Source: a virus. Taken from it: a stretch of 39,444 bases of DNA. Location: IMG/VR virus record IMGVR_UViG_3300028908_000004, positions 1 through 39,444 of that record. One strand, written 5' to 3'. The translations under genes and the position numbers were made by a program. Position 1 is the stretch's first letter. Each line of letters starts with the position of its first letter. Under the pieces are notes generated by a model. It made no database searches. It had not been told where the DNA came from and saw only the letters and a program-made list of their open reading frames with translations. Below are positions 16,989 to 28,363 of the stretch, in pieces.

Positions 16989-17642
16989 TCACAAAAAATC
17001 GTAAGGATTCCAATCACTAGACTGTTGGGGTTCAGCTATACTAATGGGCTTATCAATTCTTTCTGCGTACCATAGGGCTATACCAACAGAGAGAACTAAG
17101 TCGTCATGAATGGCATCTCTAGCCGCTTCCATTGTAAGATTCCCCTTGGCAGTCATTTCATACTTAAAATTTTGGAGTTCCTTTAAAAAATGGTCAGCTA
17201 ATCTGAGCTTCTTTGATACTTTATAAAGCCCATTTTGTAATAATATTTGTAAAACTGCAATAATATCCAATTTTGGGACATTAAATCCGGTTTCTGTAGT
17301 TCGGTACTCTAGGCCTGAAGTAAGTTTAATCAGAACAGGATTCAAGCCTTCTTCAACAAACATTTCGGCAACGGCTTCACCAACACCTGTGGCATCAATT
17401 ACTAAAGCCGATTGGCCTTTTAGAACGTGGCTATTTAGGAAATTAACCATGAACTGGACTATATCATGATATGAAGTATCAAGAGGCGGTCTATAAAGGT
17501 ATCTAGTAAGGTATAAAACCTTTTCTGGATAAAGATCATCTTGGAGCTTAGCCTCTTCTGGGTAAATAATTTTTCTCTCTGTTACAGAGATTGCTGTATA
17601 ATCATGTTTTTTGCCTAAATCAACACCAACAAAATACTTCAT
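16989..17642 (-). CDS. Large terminase subunit, nuclease half (separate gene)
   Basis: The 217-residue protein is an RNase H-fold terminase nuclease: FVGVDLGKKHDY (Asp8), LVIDATGVGEAV (Asp83) and AIHDDLVLSVGIALW (Asp180/181) supply the three acidic metal-binding positions. It lacks any ATPase motif. Its ATG overlaps the stop of the ATPase gene as ATGA, so the two halves of a normal terminase are made as separate coupled proteins. It cuts concatemeric DNA during packaging. Confidence 0.88.
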   Translation of the reverse strand: MKYFVGVDLGKKHDYTAISVTERKIIYPEEAKLQDDLYPEKVLYLTRYLYRPPLDTSYHDIVQFMVNFLNSHVLKGQSALVIDATGVGEAVAEMFVEEGLNPVLIKLTSGLEYRTTETGFNVPKLDIIAVLQILLQNGLYKVSKKLRLADHFLKELQNFKYEMTAKGNLTMEAARDAIHDDLVLSVGIALWYAERIDKPISIAEPQQSSDWNPYDFL

Positions 17643-18616
17643 ACCTTGTACTCCTCCAATATCCCTTCTACATCTTCGCCGACATCTTCTACATCTACGT
17701 CTTGATCAAACAAAGCCTCAATGTCAGTAAAAGCATTTTCTAATTGTTCATAGCTAAAAACGGAATCCTCTGTCTCTACAAACTCACACAGGTACTCTTG
17801 CCTAAACCATAGTTCCCCGAGTGAAGCTAGCTCTTCTTCTAAAAACTTCTTTGTATGCCTTGGGCTGAAAAAACAGGTAACATTAGGAAACATCTCTTCA
17901 AGCTCTTCTTTGGTGAGCTCAATAAGTCTGCCATTTACTAGTTTAAAAGGCGGTCGTACAACAACCTTATTCCAATTGATGCCATTTGTCCATTCATTAT
18001 AAAAGAATCCGCGCTTACCAAATGGCGTTGACATCAGAATTAATTCCGTATCAGCACCAACCATCATTGGCCTTACCGCTTTATAAGAGGCATCCTCCAC
18101 CCTAGACGCCTCATCAATTATAATCATATCTGGCGCAGAATAAGACCTAACACTCCTTTCTGTTCCGGGCAACGCCACGATCCTAGAACCATTAACAAAC
18201 TCCTTCTCAAATACAGTATCGTGTACTAAAGGCGGAAGGTCTTTGTCCAATCTCATAAATCCTTCCATTTTTTTCATTAGCTCGACTGACTGTGGCTGAC
18301 TCGGACAAAGGATAAGAATCAAAGCCCCCGGATGATATTTGGCTCTTTTTATTGCTTTAGAACTAATGATTGTTGATTTACCTGATTGTCTGGCACTTAA
18401 TAGAATCGTTCGCTTGTGCGTTTCGTCTAGAACGTATTCCTGCCAATCGAACGGATCAAATCCGAGAGATTTAAGGTAATCGACAGGGTCTAGAGCATCG
18501 GCCAAAGTCTTTTGAATCATGGCTTCAAGGCCATAGACACCGATTGCGTCATTGAGTTCAATTGTTTGATCTGGCTCGGCCAGTCTATTTAATCTATCTA
18601 ATCGTTTTGATGGCAT
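17639..18616 (-). CDS. Large terminase subunit, ATPase half (separate gene)
   Basis: The 325-residue protein has a Q-motif-like DWQEYVLDE, Walker A SARQSGKST (74-82), Walker B MIIIDE (164-169) and coupling motif LMSTP (194-198). It ends with an acidic tail instead of continuing into the nuclease domain. The start overlaps the small terminase gene by 23 bp. This is the packaging motor; the nuclease is the next gene, overlapping by 4 bp. Confidence 0.9.
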   Translation of the reverse strand: MPSKRLDRLNRLAEPDQTIELNDAIGVYGLEAMIQKTLADALDPVDYLKSLGFDPFDWQEYVLDETHKRTILLSARQSGKSTIISSKAIKRAKYHPGALILILCPSQPQSVELMKKMEGFMRLDKDLPPLVHDTVFEKEFVNGSRIVALPGTERSVRSYSAPDMIIIDEASRVEDASYKAVRPMMVGADTELILMSTPFGKRGFFYNEWTNGINWNKVVVRPPFKLVNGRLIELTKEELEEMFPNVTCFFSPRHTKKFLEEELASLGELWFRQEYLCEFVETEDSVFSYEQLENAFTDIEALFDQDVDVEDVGEDVEGILEEYKV

Positions 18617-23268: not shown

Positions 23269-24027
23269 ATGGAAATAACAAGAGAAATAAAGAAAAATTA
23301 TCCTTATACACTGGAAGTTGTAGCAAAAGAGGGAACCATGCTTGAAACCTTTTGCTATGAAAAAACTTTTATAGGCTCAGAAATAGAGCCTATAAAAATA
23401 TATGAACTTAATACAGAATATGAGAGGTCGATGTTTTCCGACCTTATTACTAGAAAAGGATGGCTGGTGGCTCAAGAAGGACAATACATCGTAATTGAAA
23501 CAGCCGAGAAGAATAGGAAAAACAGAGACTTTGAAAATGAAACAGAAAAATGGTGGAGTGCATATACTCTTGAACCCCTCAAAGAAGAAATGCAAAAAAA
23601 TGGCAAATATTCATTATCACTCCTTTCAGGCAACTTCACAGAATGGGAAACCCCAAAAGAAATTTCTATAGGCTCAGAAATAGAACCTATAAAATTCTAT
23701 GAGAATGAGTTCCAAAGATACCCATACGTAGAATGGGGCGACGGGTGGACATATATAGTCCAAAGGGACTATGGATATATAATCCGCCAAAACGAAGTAT
23801 ACTATATAATAGTACAAATAAGAAAAGAAGAACCTCCAACAGAATATAGAAAACCGGAATACTCTTACTCTATAGTATTCTGTGAATTAACTATGTTCTC
23901 AAAACTTAGAGACAAAGAAGCTAAAATAGAATTTTTCAAAGTAAAACACAGATATGGGGAAATCTTTTCCAAAAAACTATTAAGAACCCCTAAGCATTTA
24001 ATAGGGGAAAGGATAAAATACCTTTAA
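23269..24027 (+). CDS. Unknown 252-aa protein with two GSEIEPIK repeats
   Basis: Two related halves each contain a YPYTLEV/YSLSLL strand, a GSEIEPIK-(I/F)-YE motif (about residues 36-45 and 137-146) and a GW/Y-rich strand with QEGQYIVIE or RQNEVYYIIV. It is a paralogue of the 24372 product. Each motif is encoded by a hairpin with a 7-base loop: 12 bp at 23367-23397 and 9 bp with one mismatch at 23667-23691. GGAG precedes the ATG. No known family; predicted all-beta. Confidence 0.75.
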   Translation: MEITREIKKNYPYTLEVVAKEGTMLETFCYEKTFIGSEIEPIKIYELNTEYERSMFSDLITRKGWLVAQEGQYIVIETAEKNRKNRDFENETEKWWSAYTLEPLKEEMQKNGKYSLSLLSGNFTEWETPKEISIGSEIEPIKFYENEFQRYPYVEWGDGWTYIVQRDYGYIIRQNEVYYIIVQIRKEEPPTEYRKPEYSYSIVFCELTMFSKLRDKEAKIEFFKVKHRYGEIFSKKLLRTPKHLIGERIKYL

Positions 24028-24040
24028 TCAGGAGGACAAT

Positions 24041-24361
24041 ATGAGTAGAATTATTAATCTTACACCACACGAAGTAAATATTTTCGTTAAGGGGCAACGT
24101 GCCTTAGTTCTGCCGGCAAGTAACGATCCAGTACGTTTAAGCGAGAAAATAGAACAAGTCGGGGAGATTAACGGAATTCCTCTTTATAGGGTACAGTACG
24201 TTTTAGACAGGCCGCTTCCCGAACGACAACCGGATACTTTTTATGTTGTCAGCCGGCTGGTAAAGGATCACGCCCCTGACAGAGACGACTTTATTGTCCC
24301 GTTCCAACTGGAGCGGGCTTTAAATGGAGCCGTAATAGGCTCTAAATCATTTGCTTTATAG
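24041..24361 (+). CDS. NLTPH-type conserved protein, 106 aa
   Basis: It begins SRIINLTPHEVNIFV, then ends YVVSRLVKDHAPDRDDFIVP and IGSKSF, the pattern of a widespread small protein family of unknown function found in phages and plasmids. AGGAGG precedes the ATG. The message carries hairpins such as CCCGTTCC/GGAGCGGG near 24298-24317 and GAGCC/GGCTC near 24330-24344. Two TACAGTACG-like words lie inside the gene. Confidence 0.72.
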   Translation: MSRIINLTPHEVNIFVKGQRALVLPASNDPVRLSEKIEQVGEINGIPLYRVQYVLDRPLPERQPDTFYVVSRLVKDHAPDRDDFIVPFQLERALNGAVIGSKSFAL

Positions 24362-24368
24362 GAGGAAT
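24336..24368. repeat. Duplicated gene-junction sequence
   Basis: The junction AATAGGCTCTAA...GCTTTATAGGAGGAA recurs with few changes at 25540-25567. Both copies place the ribosome site of the next gene at the same distance, marking module duplication within the operon. Confidence 0.65.
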
Positions 24369-24371
24369 AGG

Positions 24372-25136
24372 ATGGAAATAACAAGAACAATAGAAAAGAA
24401 CTATCCATACACGTTAAAAGTTATAACAGAAGAAAGCACGGATATAGAAACATACTACCTCGAAAAAACGCTTATTGGCTCAGATATAGAGCCAATAAAA
24501 ATATATGAAGCCATAGAAAAAGATGAAGGGGCTTTATATTCCGACTCAATCACCCGACAAGGATGGTTAATTTCCCAAAAAGGGAAATACATCCTTGTTG
24601 AAACCAAAGAACTGGACAGAATTGACAGAGACTTTCCTGACAGAACCGAAAAGTGGTGGCATGCCTATACAGTCGACATTATGACAAATCCAAGCTCCAG
24701 CCCAATCGTAGAATTTTTTACTGAAGGAACATGGGATAGACAATACAAATATTCACTAGAGGTACTTGCTGGAGAAAAAAAGGAAGCCCAATACTTTGAA
24801 GACGGATATTATGAAGAAGCAAAAGCCCCTCAAAAGCTTTTTGTTGGTTCGGAGCTAGAACCAATAGAAGTATATACGTATAAATATGAGGGATTCCCAT
24901 ATATATATGAAGGAGACAAAGACACATACACCGCAGAAAAAACCAGTGGTTATGTAATAAAACAAAAAAGAGAATATTACTTTATTCTCGCAAGGCAAGT
25001 GGGGGATAGGTATTGTAAAATAGAAGCCCCAGAAGATTGCCGGTGGGAATATGACTACTGGTTTGAGGCTTGCAAATTGAACTATCTCTCAGACTTTAGC
25101 GGGGAAATAAAAATAGAATGGGGAGGAATAAAATGA
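24372..25136 (+). CDS. Paralogue of the 23269 product, 254 aa
   Basis: The start at 24372 (MEITRTIEKNYPYT) follows GGAGGAATAGG; an upstream in-frame ATG overlaps the preceding gene's end. The layout matches the 23269 product: GSDIEPIKIYE near residue 36 and GSELEPIEVY near 159, each in a YPYTLKV/YSLEVLAG half. The codons form 10-bp (24472-24498) and 9-bp (24842-24866) hairpins with 7-base loops whose stems covary with the paralogue. Function unknown. Confidence 0.75.
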   Translation: MEITRTIEKNYPYTLKVITEESTDIETYYLEKTLIGSDIEPIKIYEAIEKDEGALYSDSITRQGWLISQKGKYILVETKELDRIDRDFPDRTEKWWHAYTVDIMTNPSSSPIVEFFTEGTWDRQYKYSLEVLAGEKKEAQYFEDGYYEEAKAPQKLFVGSELEPIEVYTYKYEGFPYIYEGDKDTYTAEKTSGYVIKQKREYYFILARQVGDRYCKIEAPEDCRWEYDYWFEACKLNYLSDFSGEIKIEWGGIK

Positions 25137-25571: not shown

Positions 25572-25883
25572 ATGACAAACAAACAGTACGTTCAAATCAA
25601 GAAAGCTATTCAAGATTTTACAAAAAGAAGTACAGATGCTTCAGTTAACCTTTCAGCTGTAAGTGAAGCAATTAAGGGGACACCATCAGAGAATTACTTA
25701 AGCATAATATTAAATTATGTTTCTGATGGGACGGGTATAGCAATGGCTAGAATCTTCGCCTTACTAGAACCATTTGTCCCAACAGAAATCCTACGCCAAC
25801 TTGTCATAGGTGTGTGCATGGCCGTAAACCTAGCCGCAACTGACATCCCGGAATCTTTTATCACCGACATTAATTCCAACTAA
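25572..25883 (+). CDS. Last gene of the early operon, 103 aa, unknown
   Basis: A helical protein with a hydrophobic C-terminal half (PTEILRQLVIGVCMAVNLAA). It has a perfect AGGAGG site and an in-gene ACAGTACGTT word near its start. It ends against a bidirectional terminator shared with the convergent helicase gene. Few hairpins are visible, unlike the rest of the operon. Confidence 0.65.
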   Translation: MTNKQYVQIKKAIQDFTKRSTDASVNLSAVSEAIKGTPSENYLSIILNYVSDGTGIAMARIFALLEPFVPTEILRQLVIGVCMAVNLAATDIPESFITDINSN

Positions 25884-27163
25884 GCCCCGGAAGGGGCTTT
25901 TTCTTTGTCTTCAAACCTCTGGTATTCTTTATTAAACTCCACATTAATCATCTTTGTTGCCCCATCTCGATTTTTGTCTAAACATAAAAACCACTCATTC
26001 AATTTATACTCTCCCGGTTCAGAGCCCTCTTTTTTCATGTTATAAATCAAAATTGCTACATCTGCGTCTTTTTCTATCTGAGAACTTTCTTGAAAATCGC
26101 TTAGTCTCGGCCTGCGTCCATCCGCATCTCTTCTAAGCTGTGCCGTCGCTACAATAGGGATATTAAACCGCCTAGCATAATCTTTAAGGGTCTTAGAAAT
26201 ATAGGCAACCTCTTCTCTTCTCTCTAGGCCTAAATGAGGAGCATAAATAAGCTGTAGGTAGTCTATCATTATGATATCACAGTGCAGTACGGTTACAAAA
26301 TACCGGATTTTGCTAAGGACCTGATTTAAAATAAGGTTAGGCTCATCGTAGAAATATATTTTTAGTTCTGCCAGCCGGTTAGAAGTCGCCATTAGTTTAT
26401 CGAGTGATTGCTTGCCTAAAATCCCGCCAAAAATATAACCTGCTTGAATATTCCCGGAAAACGAGAGAATCCGCATCATAAGCTCTTTAATTCCGCTTTC
26501 TAAAGAAATAATCCCTATAGTACGTCCAAGTTTTGCCTGATGTATGGCAATGTTTAAAAGGAGAGTTGTCTTCCCCTCACTTGGCCGACCGCCTATATAA
26601 TACAGTCTTTGTCTAGCATCTCCAATTAAATATTTATCCAGCCCATTAATTCCGGTCTTCATTTCGAGAGTCTCTCTATCCTTTAAAACTCTAACCTCGA
26701 TTTCTTCAACAGTCTCTAATAGTGCCTCTCTAATGCTCTGCACTTTATAGATATTTGTCTCTGTCTGAATATCTTCAAGACCATGATAGACCTCTTGAAT
26801 CAATGTTGAAAGCTCACTTGACCTTAATTTAGTCTGAATCTTAGCCATTAAGTTTTCAAACTGTTTAAAGTTATAATAAGTAATAAGGTGTTGTTGATAA
26901 TATTCAAAATTGGCGTCGGTCGGAATAGAGGTAATTTTCGCAAGATAAGCGGAATATCGGCTTCCAGTACGTTCATTTAAAATTATAAGATTAGGCTCTA
27001 AGCCATCGTTCACAATTTCTATCACTGCCTTAAAGATTTCTTTGTGTAAGTCTTTGGTAAAATGTACTGCATCCAGTTTACTTTTTGCCAAAAGATCAGG
27101 ATTGTTGATTATCTGTCCTAACAGAACAGCTTCATATTCATGTAATGTCTTAATGTCAATCAT
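25880..27163 (-). CDS. dnaB: DnaB-type replicative helicase
   Basis: The 427-residue protein has the DnaB N-terminal helical domain (about 1-105), a linker, and a RecA-like core with Walker A GRPSEGKT (192-199), Walker B IIMIDYLQ (Asp301) and QLRRDADGRRPRLSDFQESSQIE. It unwinds DNA ahead of the host replisome. Its ATG overlaps the initiator gene by 8 bp, so the pair is translationally coupled. The C-terminus runs into the terminator. Confidence 0.93.
   Translation of the reverse strand: MIDIKTLHEYEAVLLGQIINNPDLLAKSKLDAVHFTKDLHKEIFKAVIEIVNDGLEPNLIILNERTGSRYSAYLAKITSIPTDANFEYYQQHLITYYNFKQFENLMAKIQTKLRSSELSTLIQEVYHGLEDIQTETNIYKVQSIREALLETVEEIEVRVLKDRETLEMKTGINGLDKYLIGDARQRLYYIGGRPSEGKTTLLLNIAIHQAKLGRTIGIISLESGIKELMMRILSFSGNIQAGYIFGGILGKQSLDKLMATSNRLAELKIYFYDEPNLILNQVLSKIRYFVTVLHCDIIMIDYLQLIYAPHLGLERREEVAYISKTLKDYARRFNIPIVATAQLRRDADGRRPRLSDFQESSQIEKDADVAILIYNMKKEGSEPGEYKLNEWFLCLDKNRDGATKMINVEFNKEYQRFEDKEKAPSGA
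25882..25903. terminator. Bidirectional terminator between convergent operons
   Basis: AAGCCCC pairs with GGGGCTT around a GGAA loop, followed by TTTCTTT on the plus strand. It ends the early operon. The minus-strand helicase frame runs through it to a TAG at 25882-25880, so the same stem lies in the last codons of that gene. Confidence 0.85.
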
Positions 27164-28196
27164 TCGCCTCTTTTAGCTCCTTCCACTTTAGAATTAGTTT
27201 ATAATAGGCATCAGGACTGCGTTCGAATATATCCCAATCCTCGGCTAACTCAACCCGTCCCTCCGGGGGCAATAAAGTAGGATCAGGAAGGAACTTCCCA
27301 TGCTCATAAGTTCCTATTACCATTCCGCCTTTAACTACTTCGTTTGGCGCATGAGTTTCAGCTTCCATTTCTTCAATTACTCTAGGCCAAATGCCCTGTG
27401 AGTTGAGGATTGATGGCAAAAGAGGCTGTTTTTGCCAAAAAGCACTGGATTTGTGAAGTTTCACAAAGGTATCAATAATCCGTTTAATGTATTTCTTGCA
27501 TCTCTCTAAAATCTCTTCATATTCCTTACTATTTTTGTCAGGAATAGGTGTCACTGGCTTACAGGCCTTAATCGTACGATCTACCAACTTCGATATATGG
27601 CTACCCTCCTTCTTGTAGCTACTTCCTTTGTCAAAGTCACCGTATAGCTTCAAGAAGGTGAGTTTGATAAAGGAAGTTAGGTCTTTTCTTAGAGAGAGTA
27701 AGTTTTCAGCCTGAGGTACATTCTGTGAATGTGCCTCAACTTTGTTTCTATCCCCTATATCTCTTATTATATTCTCTATATATATATTACTCTGTTTCGT
27801 ATTTTCCGAATACCCCCCCTTCGTATTTTCCGAATACCCTATCCGTGAATCCCGTATATATCTATATGCTACATGCAATATTCGTTGTTTTGTTTGCCCA
27901 TTTTCTTTGATATAGCTTGCATTTAAATATTGTTTTTTAATTAAAGAATTGATTATTTCACTGCATCTACTTGGGGAAAGCCTAAATAATTTAGAAAAGA
28001 ATTTATTAGACGCATAACATCCGTTGTCATTATCTAATGCGTTAATTTCGGCCAAAAAGATTTTTTCCATCCAAGTTAAATCTTCTGCTAGCCATATTTC
28101 TTTTGGAATCCACACTCCCTTAAAAGCATATTGTGGATTTTCATTCATCTGTTCTGTATCGAGTATTTCCATTTGGTGAATAAAATACTTTGCCAT
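27156..28196 (-). CDS. Replication initiator / helicase loader with winged helix
   Basis: The 346-residue protein has an N-terminal winged-helix domain (about 25-110: LTWMEKIFLAEINAL, then SKLFRLSPSRCSEIINSLI), typical of phage replisome organisers. A charged middle and a C-terminal helical part follow. It is coupled to dnaB, which it probably recruits to the origin. AAGGAGG precedes the ATG. Its expression is probably controlled by the structured leader upstream. Confidence 0.78.
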   Translation of the reverse strand: MAKYFIHQMEILDTEQMNENPQYAFKGVWIPKEIWLAEDLTWMEKIFLAEINALDNDNGCYASNKFFSKLFRLSPSRCSEIINSLIKKQYLNASYIKENGQTKQRILHVAYRYIRDSRIGYSENTKGGYSENTKQSNIYIENIIRDIGDRNKVEAHSQNVPQAENLLSLRKDLTSFIKLTFLKLYGDFDKGSSYKKEGSHISKLVDRTIKACKPVTPIPDKNSKEYEEILERCKKYIKRIIDTFVKLHKSSAFWQKQPLLPSILNSQGIWPRVIEEMEAETHAPNEVVKGGMVIGTYEHGKFLPDPTLLPPEGRVELAEDWDIFERSPDAYYKLILKWKELKEAND

Positions 28197-28211
28197 AATA
28201 TCCTCCTTAAC

Positions 28212-28330
28212 AAAAAACCCTACATAGGCAGGCGTTCTTGGGGAACGGGCGGAGGCAAGGAAAACCGCCCTTACCTGCCTACATAGGGCTTCTTACATTG
28301 ACCCTTGCCTTTTTTATTTTCGTTCCCCAA
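28212..28330 (-). promoter_or_regulatory. Attenuator-like RNA switch before the replication initiator
   Basis: In the minus-strand transcript CCCTATGTAGGCAGG (28288-28274) pairs with CCTGCCTATGTAGGG (28232-28218) over 15 bp, two of them G-U, followed by six U: a terminator. It encloses GGGCGG/CCGCCC (28270-28265 with 28252-28247). A competing fold pairs TTGGGGAACG (28330-28321) with CGTTCCCCAA (28247-28238) and AGGCAAGG with CCTTGCCT (28310-28303 with 28260-28253). The second fold cannot coexist with the terminator except as a pseudoknot. The initiator ribosome site follows 8 bases after the U tract. Confidence 0.75.
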
Positions 28331-28334
28331 ATCT

Positions 28335-28363
28335 ATTATACTATAAAAACCGGCCAAAAACAA
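28335..28363 (-). promoter_or_regulatory. Promoter of the replication operon
   Basis: A perfect -10 TATAAT (28340-28335) has a weak -35 TTGTTT (28363-28358) at 17 bp on the minus strand. Its start would place the first bases of the leader at the 5' arm of the antiterminator fold. Confidence 0.65.

Follow-up and report, generated by a model that had tools for sequence, protein, structure and literature searches.

The window analysed here is the whole 39,444-base record of an uncultivated virus, whose two ends share an identical 79 bases and whose portal resembles portals of tailed phages with genomes of about 34-43 kb. On its minus strand, a gene for a replication initiator is followed by a DnaB-like helicase gene and preceded by a structured leader, with the following features at the locus:

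28335-28363, minus: promoter-like site of sigma-70 type by consensus scoring, TTGTTT-17-TATAAT, with the -10 element at 28340-28335
28328-28212, minus: leader, between this promoter-like site and the initiator gene
28321-28330, minus: 5' arm a, the predicted first transcribed bases, pairing with a' (28247-28238)
28303-28310, minus: K segment b, whose complement is the inner-hairpin loop segment 28260-28253
28274-28288, minus: terminator 5' arm (T5)
28247-28270, minus: inner hairpin SL2, stem 28270-28265 / 28252-28247, with a 12-nt loop (28264-28253) containing K'
28238-28247, minus: a', the complement of the 5' end
28218-28232, minus: terminator 3' arm (T3)
28212-28217, minus: U tract (U6)
28201-28208, minus: Shine-Dalgarno sequence AAGGAGGA of the initiator gene
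27156-28196, minus: replication initiator gene (346 aa, HTH_36, phrog_270), start codon at 28196, the proposed controlled gene
25880-27163, minus: DnaB-like helicase gene, overlapping the 3' end of the initiator gene
28253-28320, plus: TTTTTTATTTT behind a stem of 28253-28260 with 28303-28310, possibly the terminator of an antisense transcript; an inner K:K' pair is present as well

Several other features of the window deserve mention. The initiator gene contains an exact 20-nt direct repeat in two copies 24 apart (27796-27839), which lie beside an AT-rich stretch and encode a repeated YSENTK; these are likely origin iterons, and SENT motifs recur in distant initiators. A tRNA-like structure at 28451-28387 (minus), which scores 33.3 bits with the Rfam tRNA model, is negative in ARAGORN and is without a D arm, resembles the tRNA-like domain of tmRNA (GGGGCGA ... 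UGGUUCGA), with a G3-U70 pair and A73 that we take to be alanine identity elements. The last part of an HTH gene (28998-28423) makes up the 5' half of this structure, and a terminator-like hairpin (28370-28348, minus) follows it. The large terminase (16989-18616, minus) is apparently split into two genes, an ATPase part (17639-18616), nearest to those of Thermus and Meiothermus phages, and a part judged nuclease-like by eye (16989-17642). On the plus strand, 23360-24877 carries four copies of a 46-nt repeat coding for GSEIEPIK-like motifs in two neighbouring proteins.

The promoter-like site predicts a transcript start near G28328, so that eight of the 10 bp of the outer helix described below are certainly transcribed, provided this start is right. 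No promoter fits between the U tract and the initiator gene, and the U tract ends only a few bases from the Shine-Dalgarno sequence; the initiator mRNA would therefore have to come from read-through of the leader.

The original prediction held that this leader can form either a 15-bp terminator stem with six U or two nested helices between the interior of the terminator and the 5' end of the RNA, and every arm is indeed present on the minus strand. The terminator stem pairs 28288-28274 with 28232-28218 over 15 bp, two of them G-U, and runs into U6; the 10-bp helix a:a' joins 28330-28321 to 28247-28238, and the 8-bp helix b:b', nested within it, joins 28310-28303 to 28260-28253, both exactly. 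When the 5' segment was shuffled by mononucleotides 20,000 times, no shuffle gave such nested exact helices, nor did any of 20 shuffled windows; singly, a 10-bp run appeared in 45 and an 8-bp run to the inner loop in 636 of 20,000 shuffles. By a weaker test, the duplex energy between the 5' segment and the interior was matched by 20 of 2,000 dinucleotide shuffles and by 14 of 3,000 38-mers of the window. The folding energy of the leader is -50.5 kcal/mol, whereas dinucleotide shuffles give -36.1 (z -3.98; none of 200 equals it), and its 5' domain alone (28328-28240) reaches a z of -3.52 (1 of 200 as good).

When the growing transcript is folded, a three-way junction that the 5' end closes is predicted ahead of the terminator. 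At lengths of 88 to 108 nt the junction is the best fold, at -37.4 once nt 92 is reached, and at 112 nt and beyond the terminator takes over (-44.2); at full length, the terminator (-49.8) leads the junction (-47.0) by 2.8 kcal/mol in the folding model. The originally proposed role of the 5' end as the competing arm is supported. The exact alternative fold needs revision: its helices are real, but a:a' together with b:b' (-33.2) is weaker than the three-way junction (-37.4) at equal length, in which a:a' closes the structure and b' pairs with the terminator 5' arm. The junction is closed by the 5' end GGGGAACG with CGUUCCCC, and its two arms hold both halves of T5. The 8-bp helix is better seen as a pairing of the eight bases of K segment b with the inner-hairpin loop, a feature common to relatives.

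Searches for a close relative of the phage gave none, whether with the initiator, helicase or portal singly in the viral contig collection, with a terminator-arm pattern, or with alignments of the terminase or of the portal (best 80 of 591 all 32-34% identical). When the 12 records behind the portal and terminase loci were searched for the initiator or the portal, 0 and 3 of 12 matched, and blastn of the leader against phage records gave no match. Upstream regions were taken from the best 80 of 562 confirmed loci in the initiator alignment and scored for a layout consisting of K, a terminator arm, an inner hairpin whose K' loop is complementary to K, a second terminator arm, a U tract and the start codon. 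Of the 51 distinct upstream regions among the matches listed, 29 show the layout and 22 are without it, while only 2 of 204 block-shuffled sequences score; the 29 are not independent and represent about six leader types by eye. The original prediction had named conservation in related phages as a check, and this conservation exists at the level of layout. The closest full-length initiator relative among the matches listed (L177; 34% over residues 16-278) carries its K, GGGTTGACA, at the start of the predicted transcript. As in the window, its terminator comes second: of the lengths sampled, 50-62 favour the K:K' hairpin and those from 68 the terminator. Full pairing of K:K' together with the terminator looks sterically excluded in L177, since K lies very close to the terminator arm.

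The letters of K and K' change together in the initiator leaders of other phages, covariance in relatives being a check that the original prediction had named. A pattern search for the commonest leader family, GAGT-N7-ACTC, with K left open and K' ignored, returned at least 119 matches, 118 with K' downstream among the matches listed, the sole exception among them (L271) looking like chance. Across 45 distinct leaders of this kind, three K sequences occur among the matches listed, each matched by its K'. Pairs of leaders that agree at all 32 linker and terminator positions can still carry different K, with 1, 3 or 4 of the 7 positions changed according to which two K are compared, and K' matches in each case. 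In 16 aligned leaders, 240 of 240 stem cells are paired and three pairs have changed on both sides. Double-changed stem cells number 12 against 3.7 expected, and stem covariation lies above every one of the 500 shuffles and of the slid controls. As many double-changed pairs arose in 20 of 500 shuffles, however, and as many further pair types (observed 4, mean 4.5) in 500 of 500. Pseudoknot pairs were counted over six chosen 7-nt classes only. Permutation tests of K:K' classes gave 1 of 200,000 with nine classes and 0 of 200,000 with 13, but these are partly circular because most classes were picked for having K:K', and our case is not rested on them. All of this co-variation comes from other phages' leaders; with no close relative of the phage found, it does not extend to the window's own arms. 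A model of the GAGT-N7-ACTC family (R1) did not hit the window even with E-values of up to 1 allowed; the window is tied to this family by layout and gene context only.

Beyond these alignments, the layout is spread over several gene contexts. The background of a strict scan was low: over both strands of 2.39 Mb of other phage DNA it yielded three hits, counting the plus strand of the window itself, and none in 0.62 Mb of shuffled DNA; it missed the window's minus strand because the inner loop there is 12 nt long. Many of the 39 non-GAGT hits of a relaxed scan look like chance. Near-identical leaders precede unrelated initiators (phrog_270, phrog_2562, phrog_6251 and DnaD-like types, one of them, L321, a weak match) and one methyltransferase-like gene. 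In L213 the layout is seen ahead of a KilAC antirepressor and in L342 ahead of an HNH gene, and a Caballeronia genome contig (L415, about 550-690) has a 21-bp terminator and a 9-nt K/K' before an AntA antirepressor. Two contigs each hold two devices with different K (TTCTCGG and ATTGGCC in L213; GTACCAG and GTCGGAT in L342). A TAnnTTTG element, presumably the Bacteroidetes promoter form, precedes many leaders. Among isolates, the Polaribacter phages P12002L and P12002S, identical over the 119 bases compared, carry the layout before a gene annotated 'replication protein'. These are the two with the layout among 12 isolate records at the initiator hit; nine are without it (L086-L088, L090, L091, L439-L442), and one, L089, starts at the gene. 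In most of the nine, the initiator abuts or overlaps the previous gene. Before initiators in cellular genomes, 4 of 65 regions scored for layout against 3 of 195 shuffled ones; L411, L421 and L422 were set aside, and L416 alone was judged convincing. Model R1 matched 0 of 8 and 0 of 395 host genomes. A conserved leader peptide was also considered and dropped, since the start codon is not kept (for example in L269 and L273). The window leader itself contains start-stop pairs at the approximate positions 28302-28297 (AUGUAA), 28284-28279 (AUGUAG) and 28225-28220 (AUGUAG), all minus, two of them in terminator arms; these were not seen conserved.

The K:K' layout is thus common to many phage initiator leaders, its letters co-varying. 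By computation, a predicted intrinsic terminator lies between the promoter and the gene in the window, with a competing fold that forms earlier, and we consider it probable that the leader is a transcription attenuator, based on K:K' pairing, that gates the initiator and the helicase behind it. In the mechanism we propose, RNA polymerase would start near G28328, and the emerging 5' end would pair with the interior of the future terminator, through a:a' and a rearranged hairpin of the first terminator arm with b', delaying the terminator. After the 3' arm has emerged, the terminator, being more stable, could displace this early fold and stop transcription at 28217-28212; read-through would yield initiator mRNA. 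The working part would be the base pairing of the 5' segment (K) with the terminator loop or interior (K'). Termination at the leader is predicted by the folding model. To judge by the folds of the window and L177, K:K' would oppose termination and not promote it, with an RNA-RNA or kinetic signal, not a metabolite, presumably setting the balance. For the kissing-loop classes, K:K' and the terminator are not necessarily exclusive, so K:K' could also favour termination there, possibly by docking onto the formed terminator.

By analogy, the window leader is best read as functionally similar to P4 CI and P1 C4 control, the known systems closest in logic. In P4, replication genes are reported to be shut off by premature termination, the CI RNA pairing with seqA and seqC (PMC4825925), and in P1, full repression of the antirepressor is reported to need C4 RNA (PMC8198154). 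Like P4 CI, P1 C4 and Gifsy-1 IsrK (Rfam RF01695, RF01394 and RF03163), the device is a phage leader with internal complementary segments and early termination, here predicted. P4 CI acts ahead of replication genes and P1 C4 ahead of antirepressors, and both kinds of gene follow devices here: predicted terminator leaders with complementary segments were found before initiators and before AntA and KilAC antirepressors. However, the C4 RNA is built on a conserved fold of its own, with two target segments, whereas K' here sits in an apical loop inside one intrinsic terminator. Membership of the C4/CI/IsrK group fails where tested: the Rfam C4, isrK and c4-a1b1 models have no match in the window or the tested leader loci, while the P4 positive control scored 74.9 bits with C4 and 60.8 with isrK. 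Across Rfam 15 at gathering score, searched for leader loci from 20 and 8 sources (L415 also at E up to 1), no family matched the window's leader or the tested leader loci, save a skipping-rope RNA (RF02924, 56 bits) upstream at 670-745 of L229, a contig whose initiator is without the device. In the open-access literature searched, by title and start of abstract, we found no description of such leaders before phage initiators, and a prior report may exist elsewhere.

The P4 precedent also allows K:K' to work in trans, a terminated leader of the same or another phage pairing with nascent leaders, as CI RNA does, and thereby reporting copy number or causing co-infection incompatibility. Leaders that agree over 32 other positions yet differ at 3-4 of 7 in K fit this, as do the contigs holding two devices with different K, but class differences alone prove little, since the layout was selected by K:K' complementarity. 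Moreover, cis pairing should outrun trans pairing, and a tyrosine integrase is absent from 20 of 20 leader-bearing records and from the window, making prophage immunity unlikely for them. We hold action in trans to be unlikely.

In the Rep attenuators of plasmids pT181 and pIP501, competing terminator and pre-emptor folds in the leader gate the initiator, and an antisense RNA from the other strand is required. The window shares initiator gating by competing leader folds, and its plus strand offers a stem followed by TTTTTTATTTT that scored in the strict scan, so that both strands look like terminator devices. Yet plus-strand promoter matches are weak (best 8/12), the plus-strand fold is not dominated by this terminator, and by eye the A-rich stretch behind it is not seen in the L177, L213 and L244 leaders. 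Antisense control with a regulator from the plus strand appears quite improbable, and no antisense RNA is supported in the window. The attenuator of B. subtilis pyrG, in which the transcript 5' end is the antiterminator arm and works via extra G residues added at the start, shares that use of the 5' end with the preferred K:K' attenuator, but the window's arm is fixed.

The original prediction spoke of an attenuator or a riboswitch, and only the former, as a computed prediction, is supported. A metabolite- or protein-binding riboswitch could use the stable 89-nt three-way junction, with its A-rich joining strand, as a pocket. This suggestion of a ligand site is disfavoured, as only the window has the junction and the leader classes share layout but no sequence core of the kind a conserved ligand binder would show; with no Rfam match either, such a riboswitch is even harder to credit. 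Least credible of all are DNA-level operators or origin elements, or an ordinary terminator with chance repeats: inverted repeats are common before replication genes and CCTACATAGG is present twice, but the likely iterons sit within the initiator gene, the nested helices exceed chance, and the G-U pairs of the terminator stem and the RNA layout kept in relatives favour RNA over DNA pairing, as originally proposed. A direct-repeat operator was considered and dropped; CCTANNTAGG has no further exact copy.

More speculatively, and with low probability, the K:K' attenuator may be a portable phage RNA device of several host groups, in which a kissing or pseudoknot pair between a first hairpin and the loop of the transcript's own terminator gates replication, and whose letters are swapped as a unit, giving orthogonal specificities by which co-infecting genomes or copy number are sensed. 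ColE1 RNA I and RNA II interact through kissing loops, and the commonest leader class here likewise has 7-nt fully complementary loops; in contrast to ColE1, both loops lie in one transcript, one of them inside the terminator.

How the start of replication is timed in phages without a known repressor is mostly an open question, which a compact RNA device makes testable. Many unrelated initiators have the device immediately ahead of them, isolated Polaribacter phages carry it too, and the coupled switching of K and K' provides a natural set of apparently orthogonal RNA pairs. If the broader reading is true, the device would be a phage counterpart of plasmid incompatibility RNAs.
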